Origin: Georgenia muralis
Lineage (GTDB): Bacteria; Actinomycetota; Actinomycetes; Actinomycetales; Actinomycetaceae
Assembly (NCBI RefSeq): GCF_003814705.1
Contig: NZ_RKRA01000001.1
Coordinates: 1,984,001 to 2,048,000 of the forward strand
DNA: 64,000 bases
Direction: 5' to 3'
A program made the position numbers and the translations under genes. Under the pieces are notes generated by a model, which made no database searches, was not told where the DNA came from, and worked only from the letters and a program-made list of their open reading frames with translations. This document shows positions 17,209-24,402 of the stretch, in pieces. Each line of letters begins with the position of its first letter. Within the stretch, counting starts at the first letter, position 1.

Positions 17209-18871
17209 CCTCGATCCACCGAGGGCTGACTGTTACGGGTAGGCGCGGGAACGCGAGAATGCCCCTCTGAGCTGGGAAGATACGACTTGTCGAAGGTCCG
17301 TATCGCCAGTTCAAGAAGGGCATCTCGTAGATGCAACTTTCTCACACCCGTCCGGTCGTGTCCGCGACGTTCGATGAGCCCAACCTCGTGTCGGCCGCCG
17401 GCCTGGTCCCGGTGATGGCCCTGGCCCGTCGGGCGGGACTGCGGGAGTTGGCCGACGAGCGGCTGAGCGTGCCCACGGACAAGGGCGCCAACGCCGGCCT
17501 GAAGCTGTCCTCGCTGGTCGCGGGCATGGCCGCCGGCGCGGACAGCATCGACGACATGGCCCTGCTGCGCCACGGCGGCATGGGCAAGGTCTTCTCCGGT
17601 GCCTACGCCCCCTCGACGCTGGGCTCGTTCCTGCGCTCGTTCACCTTCGGCCACGTCCGCCAGGTCGACGCGGTCGCCTCACGGTTCTTCCTCGCCCTGG
17701 CCGAGCACACCACCCTGCTCGGCGGCGCGGCGGACGCGGGGATGGTGATGGTCGACATCGACGACACCATCGTTGAGGTCCACGGCTACGCCAAGCAGGG
17801 GGCGGCGTTCGGGTACTCCGGCGTGCGAGGGCTCAACGCCCTGCTTGCCACCGTCTCCACCGATCAGGTCGCACCGGTGATCGCCGCCCAGCGGCTCCGC
17901 AAAGGGTCGGTGGGTTCCCCGCGCGGGGCGGCCCGGCTGGCGACCGACACCTTGGCGCTGATCCGCCGCAGCCGGCTGGCCGGCCGTGGTGTGCTGGTGC
18001 GGGCCGACTCGGCGTTCTACTCCCACACTCTGGTCACCGCGGCGCTCAAGGCCGGCGCGCAGGTCTCGATCACCGCGCGGATGGACCCGGCCGTCAAACG
18101 CGCCATCGCCACGATCGACGCCGATGCGTGGACCGCGATCCGGTACACCGATGCCATCTACGACGAGACCACCGGGGTATGGAACTCACGCGCCGAGGTC
18201 GCTGAGGTCCCGTTCACCGCGTTCTCCTCGAAGAAGAAGGCCGAGCAGGTCCCCGGCCGGCTCGTGGTCCGGCGCATCCCCGACCTGAACCCCAAGCAGG
18301 GTCAGGGCCAGGAGACGCTGTTCGAGACCTGGCGCTTCCACGCCTTCTTCACCACCACGGCACCCGAGGCGCTCGGCGCGGTCGCCGCTGACCAGACCCA
18401 CCGGGCCCACGCGATCATCGAGAACGTCCACGCCGACCTCAAGGCCTCCGCCCTGGCACACCTGCCCTCCGGTGTCTTCGCCGCCAACGCCGCCTGGCTC
18501 GTCTGTGCCGTCATGGCCTTCAACCTCACCCGCGCCGCCGCCACGGTGACCAGGGCACCGTCGCTGGTCCGGGCAACGACCGAGACGATCCGCCGCAAGC
18601 TGATCAACGTCCCCGCCCGGATCGCGACCTCCGCCCGGCGGCTACGGCTGCACCTGCCCACCGCCTGGCCCTGGCAGAGCGCCTGGACAACGCTCTACGA
18701 CGCCGTCCTCCCGCGCAGCGCCCGGGTCACCTGAACCCCGACCCATCGCCCCACGACCGAGGACCATCAGTGGAAAAGCCGGGCAGACCGGCAACCACCC
18801 CACGCCCGAGAACCACCACCGCCGTCCCGACCGCATCAACGAGCGAGCCGCGGACCATCGGTGGATCGAGG
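17209..18871 (+). mobile_element. IS1380-family insertion sequence, copy 1 (complete)
   Basis: This 1663-bp element starts CCTCGATCCACCGA and ends with the inverted form TCGGTGGATCGAGG. It is flanked by the direct repeat CTTAG at 17204-17208 and 18872-18876, a 5-bp target duplication. It carries one transposase gene. A second copy, identical wherever I compared it, lies 4077 bp downstream, so both insertions are recent. Confidence 0.93.
17331..18734 (+). CDS. IS1380-family transposase (copy 1)
   Basis: This 467-residue DDE transposase shows catalytic acidic residues in VDIDDTIVEVHG (D142/D144), VRADSAFYS (D226) and AIIENVHADLK (E364), in the spacing of the IS1380 family. The long insertion between the second D and E is typical of the family. 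The ATG follows AAGAAGGGCATCTCGTAG, with a weak SD. The gene is intact and occupies the middle of a complete element with matched ends, so it should be active. Its protein is identical to that of the second copy at 21408-22811. Confidence 0.95.
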   Translation: MQLSHTRPVVSATFDEPNLVSAAGLVPVMALARRAGLRELADERLSVPTDKGANAGLKLSSLVAGMAAGADSIDDMALLRHGGMGKVFSGAYAPSTLGSFLRSFTFGHVRQVDAVASRFFLALAEHTTLLGGAADAGMVMVDIDDTIVEVHGYAKQGAAFGYSGVRGLNALLATVSTDQVAPVIAAQRLRKGSVGSPRGAARLATDTLALIRRSRLAGRGVLVRADSAFYSHTLVTAALKAGAQVSITARMDPAVKRAIATIDADAWTAIRYTDAIYDETTGVWNSRAEVAEVPFTAFSSKKKAEQVPGRLVVRRIPDLNPKQGQGQETLFETWRFHAFFTTTAPEALGAVAADQTHRAHAIIENVHADLKASALAHLPSGVFAANAAWLVCAVMAFNLTRAAATVTRAPSLVRATTETIRRKLINVPARIATSARRLRLHLPTAWPWQSAWTTLYDAVLPRSARVT

Positions 18872-19698: not shown

Positions 19699-19884
19699 GC
19701 TCCATTGTCTGTCGGGCAGGCTCTCTGGCGTCAGGTCTTCGTCGTTTCACCATCCGTCCGTCGCGCGAAAGCCAGAGGAAACCTTCCATAAGACGTGGGT
19801 AATGCGCTGAGACGGTGACGACGCGTCGGGAAGTGCCGTTGTGACTTAGCCTCGATCCGTAAGTTCTTGGGTGGCCCGGGAGGG

Positions 19885-20015
19885 CTGGGTGTGGCTGAGC
19901 CTTGATCGCCCGTTGATGGCTCCGATGGATTGGCCGCCCGGTTCCTCCTGGGGCGCCTTGACTGCTGATTGAGATGCGCGTCCTGGTCGCTGTTTACGGA
20001 TCTGTCGGCGGGGTG
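19885..20015 (+). ncRNA. Putative bridge RNA of the IS110 element (ends approximate)
   Basis: The leader contains four guide-like segments in the order known for IS110 bridge RNAs. (1) AGCCTTGATC at 19898-19907 equals target AGCCTCGATC at 19848-19857 except one base that still allows a U-G pair. (2) CGATGGAT at 19923-19930 is complementary to the right target ATCCACCG at 21291-21298 in 7 of 8 positions. (3) ATTGAGA at 19968-19974 equals the element's right end at 21284-21290. (4) TTACGGAT at 19994-20001 is the exact complement of ATCCGTAA at 19855-19862, the element's left end. Segments 1-2 would form the target loop, 3-4 the donor loop. Confidence 0.8.
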
Positions 20016-20061
20016 TTCCTTCGGGCCATGGCAATCGCTCGTGTGCTCGAAGGAGGAGTTG

Positions 20062-21276
20062 ATGAAGCAACGGATCGCGCCCGGGTGGGCTGGTGTCGAC
20101 GTCGGTAAGGGTCATCACTGGATCTGCCTGATCGACGAGGCCGGCACCACAGTCTGGTCGACGAAGGTGGTCAACGACGAGGCCGCCATCCTCGACGCGA
20201 TCGCCGGCGTCCTTGGCCACGCCGACGAGGTCGTCTGGGGAGTAGACGTCACCGGGACCATGTCGGGACTGCTGCTGGCACTGCTGGCAGCCCACGGTCA
20301 GCGGGTGAGATACGTCCCCGGCCGCACGGTGAACCAGATGGCCAGCGCCTACCGCGGTGAGGCCAAGACCGACGCCCGCGATGCCTACGTCATCGCCGAG
20401 ACCCTGCGACACCGCGGCGATCTACAGGACGTCGAGGTCGCCACCGCGCTGGTGACCGAGCTGCGGCTACTGGTGACCCACCGCACCGACCTGGTCGGTG
20501 ACCGGGTCCGCGTGGTCAACCGGCTCCGCGACGTGCTCAGCGGCTACTTCCCTGCGCTGGAGCGGTCCTTCGACTACGCCCATAGCCGGGGTGCGTTGGT
20601 CCTGCTGACGGGCTACCAGACGCCGCAGGCGATCCGCCGGACGGGTGAGTCGCGGTTGCGGGCATGGCTGGTCAAGCGGAAGGTGCGCAGCGCCGACCAG
20701 ATCGCTGCAGCTGCGCTCGGTGCGGCCAAGGCCCAGCAGACCGTCGTGCCCGGGCAGGATGTGGCGGCCAGCATCGTGGCCGACCTCGCCGCTCAGCTCC
20801 TGGCGCTCGGCGCGCGGATCTCCGACCTCGACGCCCGGATCACCACCACCTTCCGCGCGCACCCCCAGGCCGAGATCATCGAGTCCCTGCCCGGCATGGG
20901 ACCGATCCTCGGTGCCGAGCTGGTAGCCGCCGCAGGGGACCTTGCCGCCTATGCGAACGCCGGACGGCTCGCCTCGGCCGCCGGGCTTGTCCCGGTCCCG
21001 CGGGACTCTGGCCGGCGCACCGGGAACCTGCACCGGCCGATGCGCTACTCGCGCAAGCTGCGCAGAGTGTTCTACCTCTCCGCCTCAGCCGCCATGATGC
21101 GCGAGGGCCCCAACCGCGACTACTACCTCAAGAAGCGCGGACAAGGCCACGGGCACGTCCAAGCGCTCATCGCCTTGGCGCGCCGACGCGTCGACGTCCT
21201 ATGGGCCCTGCTCCGCGACAACCGACCCTTCGAACTCGCCCCACCCTCGCGAGAACCGATGGCCCAAACGGCTTGA
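20062..21276 (+). CDS. IS110-family serine-DEDD recombinase (transposase)
   Basis: This 404-residue protein has an N-terminal RuvC-like DEDD domain: D13 (GVDVGKGHH), D62 (WGVDVTG), D104 and D107 (KTDARDAYVIAE). A C-terminal Tnp domain follows, with the HhH segment ESLPGMGPILGAELVAA and the likely catalytic Ser305 in RLASAAGLVPVPRDSG. Such recombinases use an RNA bridge to pair donor and target DNA. ATG 20062 follows a strong AAGGAGGAG; an in-frame upstream ATG at 19969 lies within the putative bridge RNA and was rejected. The gene is intact. Confidence 0.93.
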   Translation: MKQRIAPGWAGVDVGKGHHWICLIDEAGTTVWSTKVVNDEAAILDAIAGVLGHADEVVWGVDVTGTMSGLLLALLAAHGQRVRYVPGRTVNQMASAYRGEAKTDARDAYVIAETLRHRGDLQDVEVATALVTELRLLVTHRTDLVGDRVRVVNRLRDVLSGYFPALERSFDYAHSRGALVLLTGYQTPQAIRRTGESRLRAWLVKRKVRSADQIAAAALGAAKAQQTVVPGQDVAASIVADLAAQLLALGARISDLDARITTTFRAHPQAEIIESLPGMGPILGAELVAAAGDLAAYANAGRLASAAGLVPVPRDSGRRTGNLHRPMRYSRKLRRVFYLSASAAMMREGPNRDYYLKKRGQGHGHVQALIALARRRVDVLWALLRDNRPFELAPPSREPMAQTA

Positions 21277-21407
21277 CAAAGTCATTGAGAATCCACCGAG
21301 GGCTGACTGTTACGGGTAGGCGCGGGAACGCGAGAATGCCCCTCTGAGCTGGGAAGATACGACTTGTCGAAGGTCCGTATCGCCAGTTCAAGAAGGGCAT
21401 CTCGTAG

Positions 21408-22811
21408 ATGCAACTTTCTCACACCCGTCCGGTCGTGTCCGCGACGTTCGATGAGCCCAACCTCGTGTCGGCCGCCGGCCTGGTCCCGGTGATGGCCCTG
21501 GCCCGTCGGGCGGGACTGCGGGAGTTGGCCGACGAGCGGCTGAGCGTGCCCACGGACAAGGGCGCCAACGCCGGCCTGAAGCTGTCCTCGCTGGTCGCGG
21601 GCATGGCCGCCGGCGCGGACAGCATCGACGACATGGCCCTGCTGCGCCACGGCGGCATGGGCAAGGTCTTCTCCGGTGCCTACGCCCCCTCGACGCTGGG
21701 CTCGTTCCTGCGCTCGTTCACCTTCGGCCACGTCCGCCAGGTCGACGCGGTCGCCTCACGGTTCTTCCTCGCCCTGGCCGAGCACACCACCCTGCTCGGC
21801 GGCGCGGCGGACGCGGGGATGGTGATGGTCGACATCGACGACACCATCGTTGAGGTCCACGGCTACGCCAAGCAGGGGGCGGCGTTCGGGTACTCCGGCG
21901 TGCGAGGGCTCAACGCCCTGCTTGCCACCGTCTCCACCGATCAGGTCGCACCGGTGATCGCCGCCCAGCGGCTCCGCAAAGGGTCGGTGGGTTCCCCGCG
22001 CGGGGCGGCCCGGCTGGCGACCGACACCTTGGCGCTGATCCGCCGCAGCCGGCTGGCCGGCCGTGGTGTGCTGGTGCGGGCCGACTCGGCGTTCTACTCC
22101 CACACTCTGGTCACCGCGGCGCTCAAGGCCGGCGCGCAGGTCTCGATCACCGCGCGGATGGACCCGGCCGTCAAACGCGCCATCGCCACGATCGACGCCG
22201 ATGCGTGGACCGCGATCCGGTACACCGATGCCATCTACGACGAGACCACCGGGGTATGGAACTCACGCGCCGAGGTCGCTGAGGTCCCGTTCACCGCGTT
22301 CTCCTCGAAGAAGAAGGCCGAGCAGGTCCCCGGCCGGCTCGTGGTCCGGCGCATCCCCGACCTGAACCCCAAGCAGGGTCAGGGCCAGGAGACGCTGTTC
22401 GAGACCTGGCGCTTCCACGCCTTCTTCACCACCACGGCACCCGAGGCGCTCGGCGCGGTCGCCGCTGACCAGACCCACCGGGCCCACGCGATCATCGAGA
22501 ACGTCCACGCCGACCTCAAGGCCTCCGCCCTGGCACACCTGCCCTCCGGTGTCTTCGCCGCCAACGCCGCCTGGCTCGTCTGTGCCGTCATGGCCTTCAA
22601 CCTCACCCGCGCCGCCGCCACGGTGACCAGGGCACCGTCGCTGGTCCGGGCAACGACCGAGACGATCCGCCGCAAGCTGATCAACGTCCCCGCCCGGATC
22701 GCGACCTCCGCCCGGCGGCTACGGCTGCACCTGCCCACCGCCTGGCCCTGGCAGAGCGCCTGGACAACGCTCTACGACGCCGTCCTCCCGCGCAGCGCCC
22801 GGGTCACCTGA
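21408..22811 (+). CDS. IS1380-family transposase (copy 2)
   Basis: The protein is identical to that at 17331-18734: 467 residues with the same D142/D144, D226 and E364 acidic residues. The reading frame is intact, but the element's left inverted repeat is broken by IS110 about 120 bp upstream. The protein could still act in trans on copy 1. Confidence 0.95.
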   Translation: MQLSHTRPVVSATFDEPNLVSAAGLVPVMALARRAGLRELADERLSVPTDKGANAGLKLSSLVAGMAAGADSIDDMALLRHGGMGKVFSGAYAPSTLGSFLRSFTFGHVRQVDAVASRFFLALAEHTTLLGGAADAGMVMVDIDDTIVEVHGYAKQGAAFGYSGVRGLNALLATVSTDQVAPVIAAQRLRKGSVGSPRGAARLATDTLALIRRSRLAGRGVLVRADSAFYSHTLVTAALKAGAQVSITARMDPAVKRAIATIDADAWTAIRYTDAIYDETTGVWNSRAEVAEVPFTAFSSKKKAEQVPGRLVVRRIPDLNPKQGQGQETLFETWRFHAFFTTTAPEALGAVAADQTHRAHAIIENVHADLKASALAHLPSGVFAANAAWLVCAVMAFNLTRAAATVTRAPSLVRATTETIRRKLINVPARIATSARRLRLHLPTAWPWQSAWTTLYDAVLPRSARVT

Positions 22812-23061
22812 ACCCCGACCCATCGCCCCACGACCGAGGACCATCAGTGGAAAAGCCGGGCAGACCGGCAACCACCCCACGCCCGAGAACCACCACCGCC
22901 GTCCCGACCGCATCAACGAGCGAGCCGCGGACCATCGGTGGATCGAGGCTTAGTGCCCGGTGATGATTGATTGCCGTTGATGCCTTGCTCGGCTGGCAGC
23001 TCGGGCCGTCCGTTCTGGCACGGCACTGCGGTGCAGGGCATCATGTACGGCACCCGGATCA

Positions 23062-23504: not shown

Positions 23505-24032
23505 TTAGCGCGGACCGGCTATTGCCTTTAGCCAAATGGTGATGGCACGCAGGACCACGCCGCCGCGATAGGTGAGGGCAAGCTTGTCGTACCTTGTGGC
23601 CAGGGCGCGCCACTGCTTGAAGACGTTGAAGGAGCGCTCGACGACGTTGCGCCGCCTGTACGCCTCGGTGTCGTAGGTGACCGGTCGCCCGCCCCTCGAC
23701 CCCCGGCGCTTGCGGTTCGCGACCTGGTCGGAGCGTTCGGGGATCACGGTCTTGATGTCGCGCCGGCGAAGTAGCGCCCGGTTCGCCTTCGAGGAGTAGG
23801 CCTTGTCGGCCAGCGCCCGCACCGGCGTCGTCCGGGCACGTCCCGGGCCGAGGCGGGGAACGCGCACGGAGTTCATGACGTGCTCGAACATCGGGGAGTC
23901 CCCGCCCTGCCCGGGCCCGAGCAGCACCACCAGGGGGCGCATGTTCCCGTCACACAGGTGATGGATCTTCGTGCTCAGGCCGCCGCGGGAGCGGCCGATG
24001 GCGTGGTCAGGCGGCTCCTCGCCCGGTTTCAT
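23505..24032 (-). CDS. IS5-family transposase, C-terminal part (orfB)
   Basis: This 175-codon frame encodes the rest of an IS5-type DDE transposase: GRSRGGLSTKIHHLCD, second catalytic Asp in ALADKAYSSKANR and Glu in NVVERSFNVFKQWRALATRYDK. It lies in the +1 frame relative to orfA and overlaps it by 26 bp; the family sequence passes from ELHETG in orfA to EEPPDHAIG here. An in-frame ATG at 24032 exists, but a ribosomal shift from orfA, or an inactivating mutation, would each explain the arrangement. Confidence 0.8.
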   Translation of the reverse strand: MKPGEEPPDHAIGRSRGGLSTKIHHLCDGNMRPLVVLLGPGQGGDSPMFEHVMNSVRVPRLGPGRARTTPVRALADKAYSSKANRALLRRRDIKTVIPERSDQVANRKRRGSRGGRPVTYDTEAYRRRNVVERSFNVFKQWRALATRYDKLALTYRGGVVLRAITIWLKAIAGPR

Positions 24033-24402
24033 GTAATTCGACAGGTCCCCCTGTGTCCCGCGGCAGGTTCGTGGCGTGCTGGTGGGCACGGATGACCGTG
24101 GAGTCGATCGAGACCTCCCAGCCGACCAGCCCGGCTGCGTCGCCGTGGGTGAGCAGCGTGGTGAGGACCTTGTCCCAGGTCCCATCACCGCTGAAACGGC
24201 GGTGCCGCTTCCACACCGTCTGCCACGGCCCGAACCGCTCGGGTAGGTCACGCCACGGGATACCGGCCCGGTAGCGGTAGATGATGCCTTCAACCACCGT
24301 GCGGTGCTCCCGGAACGGCCGACCGCGCCGGCGCCCCGGGGCCGGCATCAACGGGGCGATCAGCTCCCACCGGGCGTCGGTCAACACAGCAGTCCGCGAC
24401 AC
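24007..24402 (-). CDS. IS5-family transposase, N-terminal part (orfA)
   Basis: The 131-residue product starts VSRTAVLTDARWELIAPLMP and contains YRYRAGIPWRDLPERFGPWQTVWKR, the N-terminal DUF4096 region of IS5/IS427-type transposases. The first catalytic Asp is D100 in VSIDSTVIRAHQHA. It ends within the overlap with orfB, so the full enzyme needs a frame change. The start is GTG 24402, 32 bp from the right inverted repeat. Confidence 0.82.
   Translation of the reverse strand: MSRTAVLTDARWELIAPLMPAPGRRRGRPFREHRTVVEGIIYRYRAGIPWRDLPERFGPWQTVWKRHRRFSGDGTWDKVLTTLLTHGDAAGLVGWEVSIDSTVIRAHQHATNLPRDTGGPVELHETGRGAA

Follow-up and report, generated by a model that had tools for sequence, protein, structure and literature searches.

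Genetic organization of the locus

The window, that is, the whole 64,000-nt stretch of Georgenia muralis DNA that was analysed, carries on its forward strand an insertion sequence of the IS110 group which splits the terminal inverted repeat (tip) of an IS1380-family element, and an intact twin of the interrupted element lies close by. The features are listed below with the evidence on which each is based (all on the plus strand; LTG and RTG, left and right target guide; LDG and RDG, left and right donor guide).

17209..18871, intact twin IS1380 of 1663 bp with both tips whole, representing the empty site
19845..19856, left target half, comprising CTTAG (IS1380 target duplication, 19845-19849) and CCTCGAT (IS1380 tip, 19850-19856); sequence and empty-site comparison
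19857..21292, IS110-group insertion sequence of 1436 bp, without target duplication; six genomic full-length copies, junctions and empty site
19872..20013, predicted bridge RNA core of ~142 nt with two stem/internal-loop modules; 22-leader consensus fold and pair counts, the ends being taken from the stems
19897..19907, predicted LTG loop, GAGCCTTGATC; fold, flank covariation and shuffles
19921..19931, predicted RTG loop, TCCGATGGATT; fold, flank covariation and shuffles
19966..19976, predicted LDG loop, TGATTGAGATG; fold and shuffles
19993..20003, predicted RDG loop, TTTACGGATCT; fold and shuffles
20062..21276, IS110 recombinase of 404 aa; PF01548, PF02371 and NF033542 ('IS110 family RNA-guided transposase')
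21273..21278, −35-like TTGACA in the right end; joining of the right end (RE) to the left end (LE)
21293..22948, remainder of the interrupted IS1380-family element, with its transposase at 21408-22811 and the right duplication CTTAG at 22949-22953

Searching the G. muralis genome, a single contig of 4.14 Mb, revealed six full copies of the IS110-group element, all 100% identical (rounded). A further copy is interrupted by another IS (L007/L009), and the eighth (L008) is truncated. The left junction read AGCC(TC or CT)GAT/CCGTAAG in all eight copies and the right junction GAGAAT/CCACCG in all seven that possess a right end. When joined, the flanks of the window copy read as the left tip of the identical IS1380 at 17209-18871, which is bordered by CTTAG on each side. 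The segment coordinates given in the first-pass annotation of this DNA were right, while the element itself is better set at 19857-21292, so that the leader starts two bases before the position proposed there. Likewise, the 'right target' that had been placed at 21291-21298 does contain the match, but A21291-T21292 are the element's own bases.

Assignment of the interrupted and intact elements to the IS1380 family was based on PF13701 and NF033539 (IS1380). The copies at 17209-18871 and 19850-22948 are identical over 1663 aligned bases and lie in direct orientation ~1 kb apart. A composite transposon formed by the two was considered and rejected, as each copy has its own CTTAG duplication and the two thus look like independent insertions. 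Further downstream, a DDE transposase gene on the minus strand (23505-24402) is spread over two frames that overlap (24007-24402 and 23505-24293). The latter matches PF01609 and PF13586, and a programmed frameshift possibly connects the two.

The 404-aa recombinase scored 166.1 bits with PF01548 and 68.2 bits with PF02371, both above the cut-offs, and 248.7 bits with NF033542 (cut-off 140); comparison with the sequences of solved structures gave the ISCro4 and IS621 transposases as relatives. It possesses the Asp of GVDVGK, both Asp residues of KTDARDA and the Ser of DSG, the last being unaligned in L044, whose reading frame is broken. At the second DEDD position (residue 62), each of the 21 proteins aligned (that of the window and 20 others) has Asp in place of Glu. 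Within the element, 205 nt of non-coding sequence precede the start codon and 16 nt follow the stop codon, and this long upstream non-coding region together with a short right end is the arrangement of the IS110 group. In the IS1111 group the longer non-coding region follows the gene, and inverted repeats are found sub-terminally; with just 16 nt downstream of the stop codon, assignment to that group was rejected. No relative was found in the phage collection searched at E ≤ 1e-40. Rfam at gathering thresholds returned four tRNAs and nothing further for the whole window, hence no curated bridge-RNA family was matched there.

Guide segments and predicted fold of the leader

Bridge RNAs are known from IS621 (PMC11208160 and PMC11208158), and seekRNAs have likewise been described (PMC11187229). 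The first-pass annotation had read the leader of the present element as such an RNA, naming four guide segments, and all four were recovered at the positions claimed. The LTG (19898-19907, AGCCTTGATC) matches the left target at 19848-19857 (AGCCTCGATC) with a single difference, a guide U at a target C, which amounts to a U.G pair with the bottom strand. The RTG (19923-19930, CGATGGAT) fits 21291-21298 (ATCCACCG) at seven of eight positions, with one A.C. The LDG, ATTGAGA at 19968-19974, equals the right end at 21284-21290, and the RDG (19994-20001, TTACGGAT) is complementary to 19855-19862 at eight of eight positions, a pairing that is lengthened by C20002 with G19854 (19994-20002 versus 19854-19862, the left product junction).

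To estimate how often such matches arise by chance, the leader was shuffled 20,000 times with its dinucleotide composition kept. An equal or better match was obtained in 57 shuffles for the LTG, 5157 for the RTG, 204 for the LDG and 3 for the RDG; two or more matches occurred together in 57 of the 20,000, whereas three or more, or all four in order, occurred in none. Pure chance was thus rejected as the source of the four matches together. By itself the RTG match is no better than chance, so the case for this guide rests on its loop position and on covariation in relatives (see below).

In order to obtain a consensus fold, 22 related leaders with a mean column identity of 72% were aligned and folded by RNAalifold, the guides not being consulted. 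In the predicted target-loop module, 19872-19896 pair with 19932-19955 to form a long stem, which a small helix (19908-19910/19918-19920) closes; the donor-loop module has a stem (19956-19965/20004-20013) closed by 19977-19980/19988-19992. All four segments fall in the two internal loops of this covariance fold, the first holding LTG and RTG and the second LDG and RDG, which bears out the order of target loop before donor loop, and the strands, proposed earlier. Pairs were counted over 37 of the 40 RNAalifold pairs, the three dropped lying within the donor loop (two) or at its edge (one). Over these 37 pairs 98.5% of the cells were paired, and both sides varied in eight pairs. The covariation score of 0.251 (shuffled mean 0.194) was reached in none of 500 shuffles and by none of six slid versions of the fold; a measure counting further pair types was weaker, with 29 of 500 shuffles. 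Folded singly, the window leader gave z = −2.62, with 4 of 200 shuffles folding as well.

IS1380-family tips as targets

The tip motif CTNAGCCNNGATCCACCG occurs 18 times in the genome, compared with no occurrence of a reversed-pattern control, and all 18 intact tips adjoin an IS1380 transposase ORF, the distance being no more than 180 bp for 17 of them and 1588 bp for the remaining one. Thirteen IS1380 relatives of at least 55% identity and two of 33% were found. One of the 13, at 1086917, lacks an exact tip; the other 12 account for 24 tips, of which 18 are intact and six are filled by the IS110-group element. Each of the six full IS110-group copies splits an IS1380 tip and has IS1380 transposase sequence in its right flank, and all share the same leader and the same target. 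The filled tips sit in six different IS1380 elements, a number too small to indicate whether filling of both tips of one element is avoided. The RTG carries one mismatch to the tips of this genome.

Hitch-hiking, by which a single landing of the IS110-group element in an IS1380 tip was followed by joint copying of the two, would render the location uninformative, and the nearly identical bases with which the right flanks of L004-L006 begin would fit such a history. However, the six full copies are found at both ends of IS1380, two 5' and four 3' of the transposase gene, and their host elements belong to three sequence groups (100%, 58% and 56-58% identical to the window IS1380 protein). Furthermore, L041 and L049 sit in a ~157-bp mini-element with IS1380-type tips, and a split tip should itself hinder IS1380 transposition. 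We regard hitch-hiking as extremely improbable.

Elements of the same guide class (AGCC) could also be compared. All 21 AGCC-class left flanks read AGCCNNGATC; CTNAG lies across the position of the target duplication in 18 of the 21 (by eye; not L012, L048 and L066), and 17 have a pyrimidine at both position 5 and position 6 (by eye; not L046, L047, L049 and L066). IS1380 transposase sequence was present in 15 of the 23 right flanks of tip-class elements (pieces only in L042 and L046), the rows L052 and L053 not being independent since their flanks are near-identical. Two further right flanks (L009 and L011) match IS1380 end sequence, and in two (L041 and L049) the IS110 element splits the ~157-bp mini-element, which has no transposase and is MITE-like. 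No IS1380 homology was seen in four of the 23 (L023, L043, L048 and L050). The identity of flanks and tips and the IS1380 ORFs beside the tips indicate that the guide reads the AG of the duplication, the tip CC-YY-GATCC and then ACCG.

The first-pass annotation had held that copies with the same leader in unrelated targets would speak against its reading. The left flanks agree throughout the class. One copy, L048 of Actinopolymorpha (RTG CCATGG), is inserted at a site other than an IS1380 tip and is flanked by open frames, the right part resembling a serine hydrolase (by eye only). Its left site AGCCTCGAT fits the LTG but its right site misses three RTG bases after CC, and thus left pairing may suffice at times.

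In the reverse direction, an IS1380-like element is inserted into an IS110 copy beside CTCAG (L007/L009, 1974858-1976498). The two families invade each other.

Covariation of guides and flanks in related elements

Leader searches of 396 and 394 genomes found related leaders in 5 and 8 of them, respectively, G. muralis included; copy numbers in relatives are at least those observed, as up to two candidates were scored per genome. Relatives of ~60-71% protein identity (on Streptomyces and Rhodococcus plasmids and in other genomes) carry the same leader with other guides. The elements annotated as IS116 and IS2112 on such plasmids have recombinases 62.0-63.4% identical to that of the window, an alignable leader and the same loops, but differ in that their guides and left flanks are of CATGG type and not those of an IS1380 tip.

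These relatives allowed the fit of each guide to its own flank to be compared with its fit to permuted flanks. LTGs were scored over nine positions, with wobbles counted as 0.75 and three offsets allowed, using 21 of 39 element rows; the 18 dropped all belong to the AGCC guide class, and 17 of them read AGCCNNGATC on the left whereas L041 has no left flank. Own flanks totalled 178, whereas permuted flanks averaged 119.1 (sd 7.1) and attained the observed total in 0 of 100,000 permutations, and the 17 elements outside the AGCC class gave 144 against 109.2 (0 of 100,000). For the RTG, T9 plus the next seven bases were scored in 23 of the 31 rows having a right end; the eight rows dropped (L005, L006, L011, L012, L041, L044, L046 and L047) all read CCACCG and carry guides already represented. 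The totals were 142.5 against 113.6 for the 23 elements, 105.75 against 80.6 for 17 elements (one per guide) and 79.0 against 61.1 for 13 divergent elements, each with 0 of 50,000 permutations, the independence of the elements in both tests being somewhat overstated by shared ancestry. Among the 10 tip-targeting rows the RTG result was not significant (63.5 against 60.25; 4104 of 50,000) and in that subset alone proves nothing. L023, L050, L052, L053 and L076 misfit the row pattern and entered no permutation. That guides should covary with the flanks of each copy was the outcome foreseen in the first-pass annotation, and both guides showed it.

Individual rows fit less well. Six of the 21 LTGs fit at least one foreign flank better than their own (L049, L055, L056, L067, L073 and L074). 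The worst is L067, with 6.75 of 9 and seven foreign rows better; L069, which carries the same LTG, fits its own flank at 8 of 9. Among the 46 non-identical RTG cells, a guide A opposite a target C was the commonest difference (11, four of them from copies of one guide); six of the 46 were G.U-type wobbles. The A/C combination occurs in the RTG of the element in the window as well as in those of L055, L060, L061, L070, L071 and L072, and G-to-A drift in the guide is a simpler account of it than a special meaning.

Two sets of elements are of particular use. L042/L043 have the right end GAGATTCC where GAGAATCC is usual, and in their RTG GGATT has become GGAAT. A donor base and an RTG base change together here, and the guide fits the product of strand exchange and not the starting target, resembling in this the handshake guides of IS621 (PMC11208160 and PMC11208158). 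In Actinopolymorpha, L045/L051 have the right target CCGTGG in place of CCACCG and the RTG CCATGG in place of CGATGG, and L046/L047 of the same genome keep the usual pair, with RTG CGATGG at a CCACCG tip. The leaders are closely similar, and this one genome contains two RTG versions at two different tips.

These data bear on the alternative that recognition of the IS1380 tip resides in the recombinase protein, with an ordinary structured 5' control region as leader and matches that are coincidental or inherited. Structured leaders commonly precede transposase genes, and the chance-level RTG match would be as expected under protein-only recognition. However, elements with ~60-71% protein identity carry other guides at other flanks that fit mutually, and the two Actinopolymorpha RTGs differ in step with their tips within one genome. 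Protein-only targeting was rejected on the LTG and RTG permutations, and we consider it very unlikely.

Crossover core, putative junction promoter and proposed mechanism

The first-pass annotation had located the crossover within ATCC, which is correct and can be narrowed. In L042/L043, donor T versus target A puts the exchange 3' of the A of GATCC, and L059/L060 (target CTC-G.TTCG, donor CTC-CGTAAG) put it no later than after TC. Since IS621 is cut after an almost invariant T (PMC11208160 and PMC11208158), cleavage 3' of T19856 and T21292 is the natural reading, and by this analogy the present element would be cut there.

Joining RE to LE gives TTGACA, 17 bases and TAAGTT (19860-19865), which is promoter-like as judged from the sequence. 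Of 42 rows, counting duplicates, 39 have a spacing of 17 between TTGAxx and TAAG, and L056 has 18; the value of 16 obtained for L050 and L114 probably reflects a wrong left end chosen by the script. A transcription start about seven bases past TAAGTT would lie close to 19872, where the target-loop stem begins.

Taken together, the sequence comparisons support the interpretation given in the first-pass annotation, and the element is very probably a bridge-RNA-guided member of the IS110 group whose predicted target loop reads the terminal inverted repeats of IS1380. As the sequence shows, LTG and RTG pair with the left and right halves of the IS1380 tip, a match that takes in AG from the CTNAG duplication, and LDG and RDG with the right and left ends of the element, respectively. 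By analogy with IS621, the excised circle would build a promoter across the RE-LE junction from which the bridge RNA and the recombinase are transcribed. The recombinase would cut 3' of the shared T, at 19856 in the target and 21292 in the donor, and the top strands would be exchanged with handshake pairs, presumably RTG T19931 to donor A21290 and RDG C20002 to the target G. The element would thereby be joined without target duplication and the IS1380 tip split.

Comparison with known systems and significance

The present element resembles IS621 (PMC11208160 and PMC11208158) in its RuvC plus Tnp recombinase, in a leader-encoded RNA (predicted here) with the target loop followed by the donor loop, in LTG and LDG corresponding to the bottom strand and RTG and RDG to the top strand, in a core with a kept T and a proposed handshake at position 7, in a sigma70-like promoter sequence at the RE-LE junction and in the tolerance of a non-canonical pair in a natural target. 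It differs in its 404-aa recombinase with Asp as the second DEDD residue, in a leader with no visible 5' stem-loop ahead of the target-loop stem, in an A-T rather than a C-T core, in a longer RTG match, and in its target, which is an IS1380 tip instead of the REP element of IS621.

In titles and abstract openings of the open-licence literature, IS1380 tips were not encountered as the target of any IS110 element. Insertion directed at the ends of a transposon has a precedent in IS4321 and IS5075 of the IS1111 group, which, as Partridge and Hall reportedly described in 2003, target the terminal inverted repeats of Tn21. These elements are likewise of the DEDD type and aimed at the terminal inverted repeats of another transposon family, but their victim is the Tn21 family and not IS1380.

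The bridge-RNA mechanism is already known; what is added here is the victim, namely IS1380 tips together with two bases of the duplication, as well as a guide in which U-U can accommodate several variants of the tip, and the re-aiming seen in a single genome. We tentatively suggest that the element may be a dedicated RNA-programmed parasite of IS1380, its guide selected for the junction of duplication and tip, with the U-U reading by wobble the variable pyrimidines CT, TC and CC of different IS1380 subfamilies and the RTG re-aimed where the tip changed, in Actinopolymorpha. The element would in this way track and immobilise IS1380; we put this forward with some reserve.

These elements offer a natural, replicated test of the bridge-RNA rules (guides, core and handshake base) in long IS110 recombinases distant from IS621, and Actinopolymorpha, with two RTG versions in a single genome, provides a case at hand of re-aiming in nature. 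With a predicted guide RNA aimed at the ends of another transposon, a mobile element could use base pairing to follow a second one and to keep it in check.
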